Shown: positions 2,893 through 34,859 of the stretch, piece after piece
How the letters are laid out: each line of letters opens with the position of its first letter
Position numbering within the stretch: position 1 is the first letter of the stretch
NCBI GenBank assembly: GCA_015523445.1
Contig: WAKG01000115.1
Coordinates: forward strand, 1-40,002
DNA length: 40,002 nt
Origin: Desulfurococcales archaeon
GTDB taxonomy: Archaea > Thermoproteota > Thermoprotei_A > Sulfolobales > Acidilobaceae
Direction of reading: 5' to 3'
Translations under genes and position numbers: made by a program
The notes under the pieces: generated by a model
Seen by the model: only the letters and a program-made list of their open reading frames with translations
What the model was told of the DNA's origin: nothing
Databases searched by the model: none

Positions 2893-3411
2893 ATGGAGAC
2901 TAGGAGGATCCTGCCTATAAGGCTGGAGGAGGTCAAGGCTCTTAGCGACGAGTTCAGAATCATGATCCTAGAGATGCTCGAGGAGAGGCCGATGAGCGTC
3001 ATGGAGATCGCGGAGGCTCTCAGGGAGAAGGGTATAGTGAAGACCCCCAACGCGATAAGGTACCACCTAGCCGTGCTTAAGGATGCAGGTCTAGTGGAGC
3101 TAACTAGAGTCGGGAAGGTCCTCAAGTACCGTGCAAGGGACAAGTACTACGCCTACACTGGATCCCCCGAGGTGGAGGAGATCCTAGATAGACTGGCTAA
3201 CGCTGTAAAGGATGATGTAGGTGTTGCTGTTGAAAAGCTGCTCACACAGTATAGGGCAGATGTAAAGGAGGCTGCTGTCAAGCTTAAGCCCTGCGAGTTC
3301 TGCGTGACCAAGCACTTCGTGGAGCAGGTTGTGTTCGAGGTTGTTAAGAGGGCGGTAGGCGAGGTTCTAGCTGATAGGATGAGGAGTCACAGGGCTAAAG
3401 TTAAAGCTTAG
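2893..3411 (+). CDS. ArsR-like winged-helix transcriptional regulator with C-terminal CxxC motif
   Basis: Winged-HTH pattern EFRIMILEMLEERPMSVMEIAEALREKG...NAIRYHLAVLKDAGLVELTRVGKVLKYRA; C-terminal KPCEFCVTKH. Starts 7 bp after the copA stop. Confidence 0.85.
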   Translation: METRRILPIRLEEVKALSDEFRIMILEMLEERPMSVMEIAEALREKGIVKTPNAIRYHLAVLKDAGLVELTRVGKVLKYRARDKYYAYTGSPEVEEILDRLANAVKDDVGVAVEKLLTQYRADVKEAAVKLKPCEFCVTKHFVEQVVFEVVKRAVGEVLADRMRSHRAKVKA

Positions 3412-5316: not shown

Positions 5317-5324
5317 TATAAAAG
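5317..5324 (+). promoter_or_regulatory. Putative archaeal TATA box upstream of the 644-aa ORF
   Basis: TATAAAAG about 40 bp upstream of GTG 5362. Confidence 0.5.
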
Positions 5325-5361: not shown

Positions 5362-7296
5362 GTGGATAATGCAACTGGCAATAGTAGCCTGGAGAGGCTG
5401 ATACTGATAGCTGGGCTTACTGGTGTGGGCCTCAGGCAGGTCTACCAGTGGCTACTGGACAACGCGGAGGAGATGGATGGCCTGAAAAGGGAGTGTATAG
5501 TACACTTCGAGGATAGGCTACTAAGCCGCATGCCCAGATCCTGCGTGGGTATAGAGCAGGTAGCAGGCCTAATACCGGTATCTAGGGACGCCGGGAGAAA
5601 TCTCTTTGAGAGCACGGCATCGGAGATAATACGCCACCTAGCCAGCAACGAGTGCAGGATCTCAGTCGTATTCATACACCTATCCTACCTCAGCCACGGT
5701 ACGGTGATCACAAATCCAGCCCTAGGCCGCCTGCTCAACTCTGCCCACAGCCTCAACATAGTATACCTAATAGACGACTTCTACGATGCCCTTGAAAGGA
5801 TCCAGAGGAGACTCGATGAAGGGATGGCTAGGACGGGAAGAGCCGGCCTAATAGGGTCCCCCTTCACCATAGACCCGATAGGATACCTGATGTGGAGGGC
5901 TATAGACTACAACCTAATCACTGCGCTGGAGACGTTCAAGCCCGGGACAAGGACCTTCCTCTTGGGTGTCAAGCACCCTCTGGAAACCTTCAAGAGGCTT
6001 ATGGCCAGCCTCATATCGAATAGTGGGACACGGTACATCTACACTTACGTCTCCCACACTATAACAGCGCCCAGGAAGCTCTACTCTCACGGATTCACCG
6101 AGTCCCTGAGGGATAACCCGGTTGTGCTAGCCATAGAGGCGCTGAAAGAGGCGTTGATCGAGGTTGATAAGTGCCTAGTATTATTCGAGCCAACAACTGT
6201 AGATGAGCTACTATCAGACAACGCGAAATACCTGCTGTCAACTTTGAAGGTGTGCAGTCAACCTGAGTCTAGCCAGCTCTGCGATGAAGAGGATCATGAT
6301 GTTGAGGATAGCCAAGGATCCAGTTGCCTGTGCACACTCAAGTACATGGTCTGCGGCAATGACCAGCAATGTTTCCAGCACATAGATGATATTGTCAGTA
6401 TGGCAACGGTAAACCACTCACTCATAGTAACGTGGAGGAATAGATGGCCTCTCCACGCCAGCACACTCTACGAGGATGTCTCCAACTATAATGTGGGGGC
6501 CACTCATGACGGCGGCCCCACGGGGCCCATATACCGTTATCTCTACCGGGGCGATAATATTCTAAACATCATAGATAGCAGGTTCGAATACGTATATGGG
6601 GGGGCCGAGCAATACGCAGAAATGATATCACTAATTGAATTTGAGCTACTATTCCCCTTCTACTCGAGGATTAGAGGTGCAGGAGAGGCTCCAGTGTTAG
6701 ACAAGCTGCTATTCCAGGTTAAGAAGCAGATCGAGATGAGAGATTACCACTACGTCTCCCAAGCCACAACTATAGCCGTGATTATGCCACTTATAGTAGC
6801 CACTCCTAGGGACCTATGGGATCTGGGGGTTGAGCAGGCGCAGGAAGCGGCGGGAATATATTATATCAGGAGTAGGGGCGTGGAGGCCGAGATGCAGAGG
6901 GCAGTAGCACTAGCTAAGCCGATAATAGTTTATGTGCTACCCATAAGCGTTAGGGCCCTAGCCTCCAGCCTTTCTAAGAATAGCGGTGACGAGGCCCAGG
7001 CACTGGAAAAGGCGGTAAAGCTTCTAGAAGACAAGTCGATATTCAGTTTATGCCAGGAAATTAAAGATGAGAACCATAATCTACAGGATCTACTGGCAAA
7101 TTGCACACGTAACCTAGGAGGGCTATTTACACCTAGCAGTGCAGGGGTGAGATACTGCGTAATCCCGTATATGCTGGATGAGGATGATATGACCGGTGAC
7201 TACTATAGTAGTCTAGGCGAGCTTAAGGAGAAGTATAGGATAGCCCTAATGGAGGCCCATAAATCCGTCTCCCCCAATATGTGCAATATCGGGTAG
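5362..7296 (+). CDS. Hypothetical protein; N-terminal degenerate P-loop-like motif, Cys-rich middle, possible nucleoside deoxyribosyltransferase/TIR-like C-terminal region
   Basis: 644-aa ORF, GTG start. LILIAGLTGVGLRQVYQ resembles a Walker A but lacks GK[ST]; ISVVFIHLS and IVYLIDDFYDAL look like beta-strand/P-loop kinase segments; RDYHYVSQATTIAVIMP...SRGVEAEMQRAVALAKPIIVYV resembles the SxG..xE..xA..xKP segment of NDT-like folds. Confidence 0.8.
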   Translation: MDNATGNSSLERLILIAGLTGVGLRQVYQWLLDNAEEMDGLKRECIVHFEDRLLSRMPRSCVGIEQVAGLIPVSRDAGRNLFESTASEIIRHLASNECRISVVFIHLSYLSHGTVITNPALGRLLNSAHSLNIVYLIDDFYDALERIQRRLDEGMARTGRAGLIGSPFTIDPIGYLMWRAIDYNLITALETFKPGTRTFLLGVKHPLETFKRLMASLISNSGTRYIYTYVSHTITAPRKLYSHGFTESLRDNPVVLAIEALKEALIEVDKCLVLFEPTTVDELLSDNAKYLLSTLKVCSQPESSQLCDEEDHDVEDSQGSSCLCTLKYMVCGNDQQCFQHIDDIVSMATVNHSLIVTWRNRWPLHASTLYEDVSNYNVGATHDGGPTGPIYRYLYRGDNILNIIDSRFEYVYGGAEQYAEMISLIEFELLFPFYSRIRGAGEAPVLDKLLFQVKKQIEMRDYHYVSQATTIAVIMPLIVATPRDLWDLGVEQAQEAAGIYYIRSRGVEAEMQRAVALAKPIIVYVLPISVRALASSLSKNSGDEAQALEKAVKLLEDKSIFSLCQEIKDENHNLQDLLANCTRNLGGLFTPSSAGVRYCVIPYMLDEDDMTGDYYSSLGELKEKYRIALMEAHKSVSPNMCNIG

Positions 7297-10415: not shown

Positions 10416-10976
10416 GTGCCATGCCCATCGCTCAAGGCTATAACAAGGCCCGATAGGCCCGGGCTTAGGCCTGTTCGGGTGAGGATCGTATATAGGGATA
10501 GTGGGGAGCTGGGGGCCATGCTGACAGGCCTCCTAAGCCCAGGACTCAGCCTAACCATACCTATAGACCCGGCGGGGCTAGATACAGGCGAGCTGGCGGA
10601 GGCGCTATGCTGCGCCCCCAGGACCAGCCCTACCGAGGCTATATTTAACATAGCCACCGCCATCGCCCTAATCATAGGCTCCGCGACCGGGATAAGGGAG
10701 GCTATAATACTGGGCCTAGCCGGGATGGCTGTAACCCTAATCCAATACCTAGCTAGGCTGGTAGGCTCCAGGAGGCTTTGCAGGGTGACTCCTCGAGCGG
10801 TAATGGTGGCTGGCCTGGTCAAGGGCCTTACAGTGGAGACCCTAAGAGCCGTGAAGGGATGCCGCCCTCCGTGTGGCAGGCTGATAGCCTATGGGGGCCA
10901 GGTGTATAGGGTTGAGGAGTATAGCGAGTATGAGGGTGGGGTTGAGGTCATCCTGGAGCCGATGGGCTCTGCATAG
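10416..10976 (+). CDS. Hypothetical protein with a central TM pair
   Basis: 186-aa ORF, GTG start, TATA-like TATAAAA at 10332-10338; hydrophobic IFNIATAIALIIGSATGIREAIILGLAGMAVTLIQYLARLV. Confidence 0.65.
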   Translation: MPCPSLKAITRPDRPGLRPVRVRIVYRDSGELGAMLTGLLSPGLSLTIPIDPAGLDTGELAEALCCAPRTSPTEAIFNIATAIALIIGSATGIREAIILGLAGMAVTLIQYLARLVGSRRLCRVTPRAVMVAGLVKGLTVETLRAVKGCRPPCGRLIAYGGQVYRVEEYSEYEGGVEVILEPMGSA

Positions 10977-18767: not shown

Positions 18768-20792
18768 ATGTGTGGTTTACTAGACGCTCCTGTGGGATTA
18801 GTGTGGGGTGGTGTCTTGTCTGAGGAGGCTCTACCCTTCAAGGAGAAGTACTATCCTGGCCTAGAGGAGTACCTGGACTTCTACGAGGAGAGCGTAGGGG
18901 ACATAGAGGGGTTCTGGGACTCAAGGGCCCGGGAGCTGGAGTGGTATAGGACCTGGGATAAGGTCCTGGACGACGACAGTAACCCGCCCTTCTACAGGTG
19001 GTTCATAGGGGCCGAGACAAACATCAACCTCAACGCCCTAGACAGGTGGATCGGCACCCCGATCTTCGACAAGGTGGCCTACTACTGGGAGGGCGAGCCT
19101 GGGGATAGGAGGACGATAAGCTATAGGGAGCTGTACAGGGAGGTGAATAGGCTAGCCTGGAGCCTTAGAGAGGAGGTAGGGATTAAGCCCGGGGATACAG
19201 TCACAATCTACCTCCCAATGATCCCCGAGCTACCCACAACCATGCTAGCAGTAACCAGAATAGGCGGGATCCACAGCGTGGTGTTCTCGGGCTTCAGCAG
19301 CAGGGCCCTGGCTGACCGTATAGTCGATGCCAAGGCCAAAGTCCTTGTGACCGCTGACGGGTTCTACAGGAGGGGCAGGGTTATCAGGCTGAAGGACTCG
19401 GCCGACGAGGCTATAGCCCTGGCTAGGGAGCAGGGGGTAGAGGTTGAGAAGGTTGTAGTGGTTAGGAGGGCCGGGGCGGAGGTTTCGTGGAGCGAAGGCC
19501 GCGATGTGTGGTATCATGACCTGCTGGAGAGGGCACCCAGCAGGGCCTACGTTAGGCCCGAGCCTAGGAAGGCGACCGACGTGCTCTTCATACTCTACAC
19601 GAGCGGTACGACTGGGAGGCCCAAGGGGATCATGCACAGCGTCGGTGGATACATGACCTACGTCTACAACGTGTTCCAGTGGAACTGGGACCCGGCCCCG
19701 GGGGACGTGTATTGGTGCGCCGCAGATATAGGCTGGATCACAGGGCACACCTACATAGTCTACGGCCCCCTGATGAATGGTGTAACAAGCGTCATGTACG
19801 AGGGGGCCCCCGACTACCCGGATCCCAGCAGGATATGGGCCATGGTGGATAGGTATGACGTGACAACCTTCTACACCAGCCCCACCCTACTCAGACTACT
19901 CAGGAAGTATGGGGACCAGTGGGTGGAGAAGCACAGCCTCGAGACCCTCCGCCTCCTAGGCACCGTGGGGGAGCCGATCAACCCGGAGGTGTGGAAGTGG
20001 TACTATGAGAAGATCGGGAAGAGGAGGGCCCCGATAGTCGATACTTGGTGGCAGACCGAGACGGGGGCTGCTATGATAAGCCCTGCCCCTGGGATAAGCC
20101 TAGTACCCCTGAAGCCTGGAAGCGCCACCCTACCCCTACCCGGCATAGTGGCTGAGGTCCTAGACTACACCGGGGACCCCGCGGAGCCCGGGAAGAAGGG
20201 GTTGCTGGTGATTAAGAAGCCGTGGCCAGGCATGCTCATGGGTATATGGGGCGACCCGGAGAGGTACGTGAGGACCTACTGGAGCACGTTCAGCAAGCCC
20301 GAGGAGGGTGTCTGGATCTACTACCCGGCAGACTACGCGGTTAGGGACGGGGATGGCTACTTCTGGCTACTGGGCAGGGCTGATGAGGTCCTCAACGTAG
20401 CTGGCCATAGGCTGGGCACCATAGAGCTGGAGGACGCCATACTAACCCATCCAGCAGTGAGCGAGGCAGCAGTCGTGGGGGCCCCAGACCCGGTGAAGGG
20501 CCAGGTCCCCGTGGCTGCTGTCGTCCTTAGGGACGGCTACGAGCCCAGCCCGGAGCTGGAGGAGGATATTAAGAGGAGGGTGAGGGAGCTGATAGGCCCC
20601 ATAGCGGTCCCGGCCAGGATACTATTCGTGAAGAAGCTCCCCAAGACCAGGAGCGGCAAGATAATGAGGAGGATACTAATCGCCCTCCTCCAGGACAAGC
20701 CGATCGGGGACACCTCAACCCTCGAGGACCCCACCGCCGTCGAGGAGGTAAAGAAGGCCGTGGAGGAGTTCAAGAGGCTAGCCAAGGGATGA
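18768..20792 (+). CDS. acs: Acetyl-CoA synthetase (AMP-forming)
   Basis: LFILYTSGTTGRPKGIMHS; YWCAADIGWITGHTYIVYGPL; DTWWQTETGAAMISP; LPKTRSGKIMRRIL. The true start may be TTG 18816. Confidence 0.94.
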   Translation: MCGLLDAPVGLVWGGVLSEEALPFKEKYYPGLEEYLDFYEESVGDIEGFWDSRARELEWYRTWDKVLDDDSNPPFYRWFIGAETNINLNALDRWIGTPIFDKVAYYWEGEPGDRRTISYRELYREVNRLAWSLREEVGIKPGDTVTIYLPMIPELPTTMLAVTRIGGIHSVVFSGFSSRALADRIVDAKAKVLVTADGFYRRGRVIRLKDSADEAIALAREQGVEVEKVVVVRRAGAEVSWSEGRDVWYHDLLERAPSRAYVRPEPRKATDVLFILYTSGTTGRPKGIMHSVGGYMTYVYNVFQWNWDPAPGDVYWCAADIGWITGHTYIVYGPLMNGVTSVMYEGAPDYPDPSRIWAMVDRYDVTTFYTSPTLLRLLRKYGDQWVEKHSLETLRLLGTVGEPINPEVWKWYYEKIGKRRAPIVDTWWQTETGAAMISPAPGISLVPLKPGSATLPLPGIVAEVLDYTGDPAEPGKKGLLVIKKPWPGMLMGIWGDPERYVRTYWSTFSKPEEGVWIYYPADYAVRDGDGYFWLLGRADEVLNVAGHRLGTIELEDAILTHPAVSEAAVVGAPDPVKGQVPVAAVVLRDGYEPSPELEEDIKRRVRELIGPIAVPARILFVKKLPKTRSGKIMRRILIALLQDKPIGDTSTLEDPTAVEEVKKAVEEFKRLAKG

Positions 20793-32603: not shown

Positions 32604-34859
32604 TTAGGGCGCCCGTCCCCTATATCTATAGTATAGTAGATACCCTGCAGACGCTGCCAGGTATGCTAGAATTGATGCCAGTGTGACTCTTGCCATGTCG
32701 CCATGGAGCTTATTTGTTATTATGAACCTGGCCCCCTCACTGGCCTCTACTAGCCACCCGTTCATGATCCCGTTAACCTTCACATGATCAACTACCGTTC
32801 CCCCCTCTATCTTCATCTGCCATCTCTCATCGTAGCCTGTTAGTAGCACTATTACCAGCCTACCGCTGCACTTAACCACGCCCTCGTACTGCACGGGGCT
32901 CTTCTTCACCCACTCCAGCGATCCGCTGCCACATGTCGGCTCTGGTATCGGCCTCTCCGAATCCACTATGGCTAGCCTGCCCTGGTCTGGGTTCCCAGCT
33001 ACTTTCTTGGCCATATCCTTCATATCGCCGCTGTGTGGAATTATCTTGTCTGCCGCGTAGAGTATGGGGTAGGCGTCGAGTTTATACACTTCTATGAAGT
33101 CTAGAGTGGCTTCAGGCCTCATACCCTCTAGGACCTTCTTTACTACCCCATAGCCAGTGTCCTTGAAGAGTAGCTGGGGCTTATACGAGTCTATACCCAT
33201 AGACAGGACTATATAGTTTATACCCCATATCTTTGAAATCTCCATCCATCCCTGGGACCCTGTGCCTACCATCTTTAGATACATTTCTATCTCCTCCTGG
33301 TACGGGGATTTTATGTACTCGCTGCCAGCCCCGGTTACTATCGGTTTTGACAGGAAAACGGCGTAGGGGTTTCCGAAGCCCCACACGATGTCTCCATACT
33401 TGAAGACTATGTAGACTCCGGTTGGTGGCATGAATGTTGACCAGCTTGCCTCTCCTAAGATCGAATCCAGCTCATTATATATATGGAATGGAATGTTGTA
33501 GCCCTTACCCTGGGCCGGGTCCAGCCAGTTAGTGGCCACCGAGCCAGTGTATAGGGGGAAGGCTGAGACTATCCCTAGGAACATGATTAACGAGGCCACC
33601 AAGGTAAGCCCCCATGGAGGCCTCCACTGGGAGGCCCTAGACGCTAGTAGGGCTACCAGTAGCCCTGTTACGAGGGAGACTAGGTAGAACCAGTTGTAGG
33701 TGTTCCTGAAGGGGGCCACAACCTTAATCTTGACTAGCCAAATGTATAGGTCCCCTAGGACCCTACTCCCTAACACTAGTACATATAGCATGGCTAGGGC
33801 GGCTAGTAGCAAAAGCCTGCCCCTTCTAGGAGCTTGGCCCAGTATGCCCCCTAGCACTGGTAGGACAAGTGTTAGGGAGAGGGTGACTACTATCATGAAG
33901 GTGGTGTAGTAGACCTCATGGTAAGGCACATAGTAGACCTCCAGGTTCTTCTCATACTTGGTAAAGCTCCACATGTATAACATCCTAAACACATCTATAA
34001 GCCCTGTATCCGGCTGGATACCTGATAGCCTTAGGGCCCTGAACTGGGACGTGAAGATATCAATATTATACATTGTAAAGGCTGCTAGAGGTGCTAGGGC
34101 GATAGCCACAAATAGCATTGCTGGGGCCAGCCTCCTGAGGCCCCTAAATATAGGCTTAACGGGTAGACTGACCTCCAAGACCCCATCACGGTACCTGGCC
34201 CTAAACCACCTAACTGTATACAGGTAGGCCAGTACCAGGAGCTGCCAGTAAACAGCAATGTAAAATATCCTTACATTAGGATACCTAGACAGCACAAGGA
34301 GCAGGGTAAGTGGGTAAACCAGTATAGCCAGCCTGTTCCCCCTAATCACCTTTATCAGCGCCAGGGTTGAGAGGGATACGAAGAGCATGGTGTACGTTAC
34401 AACTATAGCACTTATCTCCCTATCAATCACCATGAAGGGAGTATTGAATATGTAGAAAGCCGCGGCCAGCGCACCAGCCCTAGATCCAGTTACCTCCACG
34501 AACATTGCATAAACTGCAAGGAACGAGGCCACGGATACCAAGTATACCGATACTGCCTCCACCACACAAGGGCTACCAAGGCCAGCCTTGACAAGGATGA
34601 AGGATAGGGCCTCAACAGGGTTTAGAAGCCTGAAGGGGTAGGGAGAGGGGAGGCCAAAGTCTATTTCATCTATGAAGTAGAAGTACCTAACCTCGGCAGC
34701 CCTAGGGTTGAAGAAGAGCCTAAGATCGCCCGACAGAGGTATGCGGGGACAGTCGAACCAGGTTATTATCCTGAGGCTTAGAAGGAAGGCGATGATGAGG
34801 GGGGCGAAACGGATTATCCCCGGCCCAACCTGCTCGAGCCGGGGCCGGGATATCCTCAT
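32604..34859 (-). CDS. Large polytopic membrane protein (GT-C glycosyltransferase/YfhO-like) with C-terminal extracytoplasmic region
   Basis: 751 aa, many TM helices, N-terminal loop PRIPLSGDLRLFFNPRAAEVRYFYFIDE, soluble C-terminal region ending in a TM and basic tail (YLAASAGYLLYYRYRGRAP). Confidence 0.75.
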   Translation of the reverse strand: MRISRPRLEQVGPGIIRFAPLIIAFLLSLRIITWFDCPRIPLSGDLRLFFNPRAAEVRYFYFIDEIDFGLPSPYPFRLLNPVEALSFILVKAGLGSPCVVEAVSVYLVSVASFLAVYAMFVEVTGSRAGALAAAFYIFNTPFMVIDREISAIVVTYTMLFVSLSTLALIKVIRGNRLAILVYPLTLLLVLSRYPNVRIFYIAVYWQLLVLAYLYTVRWFRARYRDGVLEVSLPVKPIFRGLRRLAPAMLFVAIALAPLAAFTMYNIDIFTSQFRALRLSGIQPDTGLIDVFRMLYMWSFTKYEKNLEVYYVPYHEVYYTTFMIVVTLSLTLVLPVLGGILGQAPRRGRLLLLAALAMLYVLVLGSRVLGDLYIWLVKIKVVAPFRNTYNWFYLVSLVTGLLVALLASRASQWRPPWGLTLVASLIMFLGIVSAFPLYTGSVATNWLDPAQGKGYNIPFHIYNELDSILGEASWSTFMPPTGVYIVFKYGDIVWGFGNPYAVFLSKPIVTGAGSEYIKSPYQEEIEMYLKMVGTGSQGWMEISKIWGINYIVLSMGIDSYKPQLLFKDTGYGVVKKVLEGMRPEATLDFIEVYKLDAYPILYAADKIIPHSGDMKDMAKKVAGNPDQGRLAIVDSERPIPEPTCGSGSLEWVKKSPVQYEGVVKCSGRLVIVLLTGYDERWQMKIEGGTVVDHVKVNGIMNGWLVEASEGARFIITNKLHGDMARVTLASILAYLAASAGYLLYYRYRGRAP

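Follow-up and report, generated by a model that had tools for sequence, protein, structure and literature searches.

A widespread two-domain protein family of Thermoproteota that joins a degenerate adenylate-kinase-like domain to a PF05014-type domain resembling nucleotide N-glycosidases

What kind of protein is encoded by the 644-codon gene in the 40,002-nucleotide stretch of a Desulfurococcales archaeon analysed here (contig WAKG01000115.1, positions 1 to 40,002; the window), and what might it do? A first-pass annotation had described the product as an orphan with a degenerate P-loop, a catalytic region like that of nucleoside 2-deoxyribosyltransferases (NDTs) or TIR domains and a Cys-rich insert, and had considered a stress or antiviral effector. 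The open reading frame was found as described and every motif quoted for it is present. The gene and its upstream element are:

5362-7296, + strand: GTG start; 644-aa protein with a pseudo-adenylate-kinase domain and a PF05014-type N-glycosidase-like domain
5317-5322, + strand: TATAAA (TATA box), 45 bases 5' of the GTG, read directly from the sequence

The TATAAA at 5317 agrees with the earlier claim that the gene has a TATA box of its own and presumably serves as an archaeal promoter element. The gene had also been called more AT-rich than its neighbours: its GC content of 50.5% is indeed the lowest among the 23 larger genes compared (51.2-61.8% in the rest), but its GC3 of 59.2% is unexceptional. 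The open reading frame is far beyond a chance ORF, as shown by an orthologue in a congener (60-61% identity), a low dN/dS (~0.1-0.2 in both domains) and an independent profile match: a family profile made without the window protein and its congener gave a single match spanning residues 12-528 (E~1e-43, with the database size set nominally at 20,000). Purifying selection acts on both domains. A decaying pseudogene was ruled out by the dN/dS of ~0.17 in the N-domain.

The label "orphan" did not hold. It is understandable because searches with the 644-aa protein as a single query were empty, giving no meaningful match in Pfam, PHROGs, PADLOC, NCBIfam or the PDB. Relatives were obtained from 15 of 60 related genomes by a genome search, and stepwise profiles gave matches in 47 of 214 genomes of the order (E<=0.001), some of them adenylate kinases. 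At the scale of the phylum, 95 of 398 sampled Thermoproteota genomes were matched at E<=1e-10; by our reading of the match table, ~67 of these contain two-domain members, the rest being true adenylate kinases that are reached via the N-domain. The family core measures ~355-440 aa. Long forms (520-680 aa), with inserts in the C-domain and a C-terminal tail, were found only in the window protein's own family, and by its profile matches the 644-aa protein is a long-form member of this widespread two-domain Thermoproteota family. The family is thus widely distributed in archaea, yet missed by standard annotation.

In the second half of the protein, the first strand and the G..E..A..KP core of NDT-like folds had been pointed out from the sequence, and profiles and hhalign placed them exactly there. 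The features of this part, with counts from an alignment of 64 diverse family members (identities down to ~17-20%), are:

6025-6945, + strand: PF05014-type C-domain, residues ~222-528, with lineage-specific inserts within (profiles, hhalign)
6046-6075, + strand: first-strand motif YVSHTITAPR; Y229 aligns with the catalytic Tyr of DNPH1 (human Y24, rat Y13), 64/64
6187-6207, + strand: EPTTVDE, residues 276-282, second strand and the loop after it; P277 invariant (alignment)
6442-6450, + strand: R361-W362-P363, conserved in Sulfolobales- and Thermoproteales-type members (W in 44/64)
6739-6762, + strand: RDYHYVSQ, residues 460-467; D461 aligns with the general acid of DNPH1 (human D80, rat D69), 64/64
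6871-6891, + strand: SRGVEAE, residues 504-510; E510 aligns with the nucleophile of DNPH1 (human E104, rat E93); E510 and G506, 64/64

Residues 222-528 are best assigned, at the level of the family, to a PF05014-type domain. PF05014 gave no match to the 644-aa protein alone and its scores on the full-length family members scanned lay under the curated cut-off; when the C-domains of 33 family members were scanned, 24 gave a match at E<=0.01, the best at 1.3e-7. A C-domain profile built without the 644-aa protein matched residues 228-287 and 449-527 of it. Alignment of the C-domain with standalone archaeal PF05014 proteins by hhalign reached 98.8% probability, against at most 2% for 20 column shuffles and 1% for the N-domain. 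In the model of a compact relative (408 aa; pLDDT 90.3, pTM 0.91), the C-domain strands 206-211, 251-254, 343-347, 373-376 and 393-395 alternate with helices, as expected. The 50 rows of Foldseek matches listed were all taken up by the N-domain, and support for the predicted fold of the C-domain comes from the profiles and from the strand order in the compact model.

Such a domain could belong to an NDT, which would move deoxyribose between bases in nucleoside salvage; the kinase-like domain would then be an appendage with a structural or regulatory function. NDTs are members of the same PF05014 superfamily, the Tyr, Asp and Glu are conserved and NDTs do appear in the C-domain profile search, at E values of 0.07-0.8 (2a0k, 0.07). 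Nucleotide N-glycosidases scored clearly better, the best solved relatives being the CMP N-glycosidase 4jen (1.1e-4) and DNPH1/Rcl (0.002). The Asp of the NDT motif D-x-G-x-x-x-E, moreover, is replaced in all members: position 504 holds Ser in 44 and His in 20 of the 64 and never Asp, while standalone archaeal proteins of strict NDT type (L138-L140) keep Asp at the equivalent position. By alignment, S504 is the counterpart of the phosphate-binding Ser of DNPH1 (human S98, rat S87), that is, of the phosphate Ser of nucleotide N-glycosidases rather than of the NDT Asp. We consider an NDT unlikely.

Only W178, Y229, P277, D461, G506 and E510 are invariant in the 64 sequences, and three of these six (Y229, D461 and E510) correspond to the catalytic triad of DNPH1/Rcl. 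In human DNPH1, the triad is formed by Y24, D80 and E104, with S98 as a phosphate ligand (PMC10603095). In the PF05014 superfamily, a Tyr instead of a Phe near the catalytic Glu marks a preference for deoxyribose (PMC7308715). The SIRGG phosphate loop of DNPH1 is absent; the family has a PI[TS]-type (PITxxR-type) segment, which reads YVSHTITAPR in the window protein. From the invariance of the triad, the Ser or His in place of Asp and the Tyr that marks deoxyribose, we therefore infer that the C-domain would be a (deoxy)nucleotide N-glycosidase.

Two parts of the protein are peculiar to its lineage:

6232-6417, + strand: Cys-rich insert, residues 291-352 (C298, C307, C322, C324, C331, C337; alignment)
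6949-7293, + strand: lineage-specific C-terminal extension, residues 530-644 (42% identity with the congener)

The Cys-rich insert was correctly noted, with six Cys between 298 and 337. It is full-length only in the 644-aa protein and its congener, with 66 and 68 aa between the flanking columns compared with 1-38 aa in the other members, and the two inserts are 25% identical as against 73-75% for the cores. Judged from this alignment, it is a fast-evolving, genus-level embellishment outside the catalytic core. A catalytic role of the insert was ruled out by the compact members, which do without it. Proteins of the long form (>520 aa) contain 7-16 Cys, as compared with 0-6 in compact members. 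Disulfide stabilisation, which is reported to be common in thermophilic archaea (PMC3177088), would be the simplest reading of the insert. The C-terminal extension comprises 115 aa here versus ~30 aa in compact members.

The first half of the protein was predicted by the first-pass annotation to have an adenylate-kinase-like fold with a Walker A motif lacking GK[ST], and both predictions were borne out. Its features are:

5395-6006, + strand: archaeal-adenylate-kinase-like N-domain, residues ~12-215 (profile, Foldseek)
5413-5436, + strand: degenerate Walker A, residues 18-25, GLTGVGLR, with Lys replaced by Leu and Ser/Thr by Arg (alignment)
5893-5898, + strand: W178-R179, a pair conserved in the kinase-like domain (Trp 64/64, Arg 63/64)

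A family N-domain profile matched the adenylate kinases of A. pernix (6ln3, E=2.2e-13) and Sulfolobus (1nks, 4.9e-10). In an AlphaFold model of the 644-aa protein (a monomer, as are all the models; pLDDT 80.7, pTM 0.86), the best 17 Foldseek matches were archaeal adenylate kinases at probability 1.00 (6pk5, 1nks, 6ln3); the best matches of the compact relative included archaeal adenylate kinases along with P-loop kinases of other kinds, shikimate kinases among them. The stretch homologous to archaeal adenylate kinase comprises residues 12-215. On the 644-aa protein itself, none of the adenylate kinase models passes its cut-off. Distant members rise above the Pfam AAA_17 cut-off (L114, 1.1e-10; L117, 6.4e-10), and PRK04040, the archaeal adenylate kinase model, matches L117 at 3.3e-11, which is under the model's curated cut-off, reached by none of the family members scanned.

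The Walker A GK[ST] is present in 0 of the 64 members. The position of its Lys (residue 24) is occupied by Leu in 21, Arg in 17, Lys in 9 and Met in 6 of them, or by another residue, and a Lys at this position never precedes Ser/Thr. As read from the alignment, this loss argues against adenylate-kinase phosphotransfer. A bifunctional enzyme has nevertheless to be weighed, in which the N-domain would phosphorylate or hydrolyse nucleotides via a non-canonical P-loop and feed the N-glycosidase domain. The purifying selection on the N-domain is comparable to that on the catalytic core, Arg or Lys takes the Walker Lys position in 26 of the 64 members, and W178, R179 and R146 are nearly invariant. 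With no GK[ST] in any member, Leu-Arg in the window protein and an intact adenylate kinase encoded separately in the same genome, we regard this explanation as improbable, though not negligible. The purifying selection on the N-domain suggests, therefore, that the domain is kept for a role other than ordinary phosphotransfer.

The proposal of an effector in stress or antiviral defence fared poorly. Such an effector would cleave NAD or signal by means of a TIR- or SLOG-like C-domain, and PF05014, TIR and SLOG domains do share a general fold type. The best TIR-type match of the C-domain profile was a weak one to ThsB (E=0.27), TIR gave no match to the 644-aa protein in Pfam or PADLOC, and SLOG cluster4 matched single family members marginally. 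A SIR2 gene lies near the family gene in some putative Pyrobaculum and Thermodiscus loci. In the window, a defence-island context had been put forward as a check. The neighbours include a copper-type P-ATPase, an ArsR-like regulator, a thiolase, MarC, the S component of an ECF-type riboflavin transporter and an M20 peptidase, in the same order as in the sister MAG L052; this is a housekeeping neighbourhood and not a defence island. PADLOC found no defence gene in it except a Csa3-type regulator adjoining the copper ATPase. Among the loci compared, the family gene has no universal neighbour, and its context differs between lineages. Searches of viruses with the single 644-aa protein and of plasmids (tblastn) with a distant family member gave no relative, and a Foldseek search of a viral library gave kinase-type matches, in which a two-domain relative was not recognised. 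In view also of the absence of a PADLOC match on the protein itself, the conservation of the family across many lineages and the nucleotide N-glycosidases as its closest profiles, a TIR- or SLOG-like effector is very unlikely. The chance of a non-enzymatic sensor, in which both domains bind nucleotides and neither catalyses, is next to negligible: a catalytic motif is visibly lost in one domain, but the C-domain triad is retained in 64/64 at such low identities, which would be needless for a pure binder.

Some other genes of the window were recorded. The regulator at 2893-3411 (+), of the ArsR HTH type, also matches the model of the CRISPR-associated Csa3 (7.5e-16); located directly after the copper-type P-ATPase, it is probably a metal regulator rather than a Cas protein. 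Two ORFs are without a Pfam match at 1e-5, one of 751 aa at 32604-34859 (-) and one of 186 aa at 10416-10976 (+), the latter also present in the syntenic L052.

The explanation that we consider probable is that the family combines a disabled adenylate-kinase domain with a PF05014 (nucleotide N-glycosidase-like) domain and disposes of unwanted deoxynucleotides. The C-domain would cleave a nucleoside 5'-monophosphate hydrolytically at its N-glycosidic bond, the substrate being probably a deoxynucleotide. The predicted roles, as in DNPH1, are attack on C1' for E510, that of the acid for D461, discrimination of the sugar for Y229 and binding of the 5'-phosphate for S504. The N-domain may bind a nucleotide, as a substrate or as an allosteric signal, without phosphate transfer, and the physiological role could be the removal of unwanted or damaged (e.g. 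deaminated) deoxynucleotides. Counting against this explanation are the His in place of Ser at the phosphate position of 20/64 members and the replacement of the SIRGG loop.

Genes found next to family members might indicate the substrate. In Caldivirga, the family gene touches or overlaps a DUF99 gene on the same strand, with gaps of -7 to 3 bases (L098:4041-5724, also L064-L066, L095-L097 and L099; PF01949, E=1.4e-55), suggesting that the two form an operon. DUF99 is endonuclease dU (PMC11585767). In L115/L116, a DUF99 gene is located ~1.1 kb from the family gene on the other strand. L120 has a dCTP deaminase-like gene (PF22769; 3806-4336) only 69 bases away from the family gene, and in the related locus L111 the distance is ~0.9 kb. 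Other recurrent neighbours are DUF711 (PF05167), within ~5 bases on the same strand in six loci (L110, L127, L175-L178), and an HD-like protein in another group of loci. Given tens of lineages and genomes of ~1,600 genes, some genes are expected to turn up as partners in two lineages by chance, and none of the partners counts as proof; the dU links come from few independent events and could be due to chance. The proximity of endonuclease dU and dCTP deaminase makes a role in deoxyuridine or deaminated-nucleotide metabolism attractive without proving it. A more specific reading, possible though doubtful at present, is that of a widespread archaeal deoxynucleotide sanitiser: a DNPH1-like enzyme, gated by a nucleotide-sensing pseudo-adenylate-kinase, that would hydrolyse dUMP or another deaminated dNMP and work alongside endonuclease dU and dCTP deaminase in archaea of hot habitats, in which deamination proceeds fast. 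If the activity proposed for the family were confirmed, Thermoproteota would have an equivalent of DNPH1, which sanitises the human nucleotide pool, and the N-domain would be an example of a pseudo-adenylate-kinase serving as a nucleotide sensor.

In comparison with known systems, the parts of the family are familiar and the combination appears undescribed, no description of an adenylate-kinase-like domain fused to a PF05014-type domain having been found in the open literature searched. AdkA (PRK04040; 6ln3, 1nks, 6pk5), which converts ATP and AMP to 2 ADP, has the fold and the sequence profile of the N-domain in common with the family; the family differs from it by the missing Walker A GK[ST] and by the fusion to a glycosidase-type domain. 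NDTs (PF05014) share the superfamily, the catalytic Glu and the first-strand Tyr with the C-domain and differ in the Asp before G..E, which is Ser/His in the family, and in their weaker profile scores. A group of standalone archaeal PF05014 proteins of ~140-170 aa (L148, L152, L153, L157-L160, L163-L165, L167) carries GPI.G (GPIQG) and LSAGxCMELFYAK-type motifs. In one comparison, proteins of this group (e.g. L148, L152, L158) aligned with the C-domain by hhalign at 98.0% over 142 columns (E=2e-13), including an SPF/SPW segment after the catalytic helix; they are without a kinase-like domain, and in most of them the first-strand Tyr is replaced by Phe. The nearest systems are DNPH1/Rcl and the CMP/hmCMP N-glycosidases (4jen, MilB), similar to the C-domain at the profile level. 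DNPH1/Rcl, which converts a dNMP to a base and deoxyribose 5-phosphate, is a homodimer in which the second phosphate Ser is contributed by the partner subunit. All of these are single-domain proteins of ~145-175 aa, whereas the family described here is fused to a kinase-like domain and, relative to DNPH1/Rcl, has PITxxR for SIRGG, the RWP motif and long inserts. What it has in common with them is the Tyr-Asp-Glu triad, the S-x-G-V-x-x-E sequence and the nucleotide-type Ser instead of the NDT Asp.
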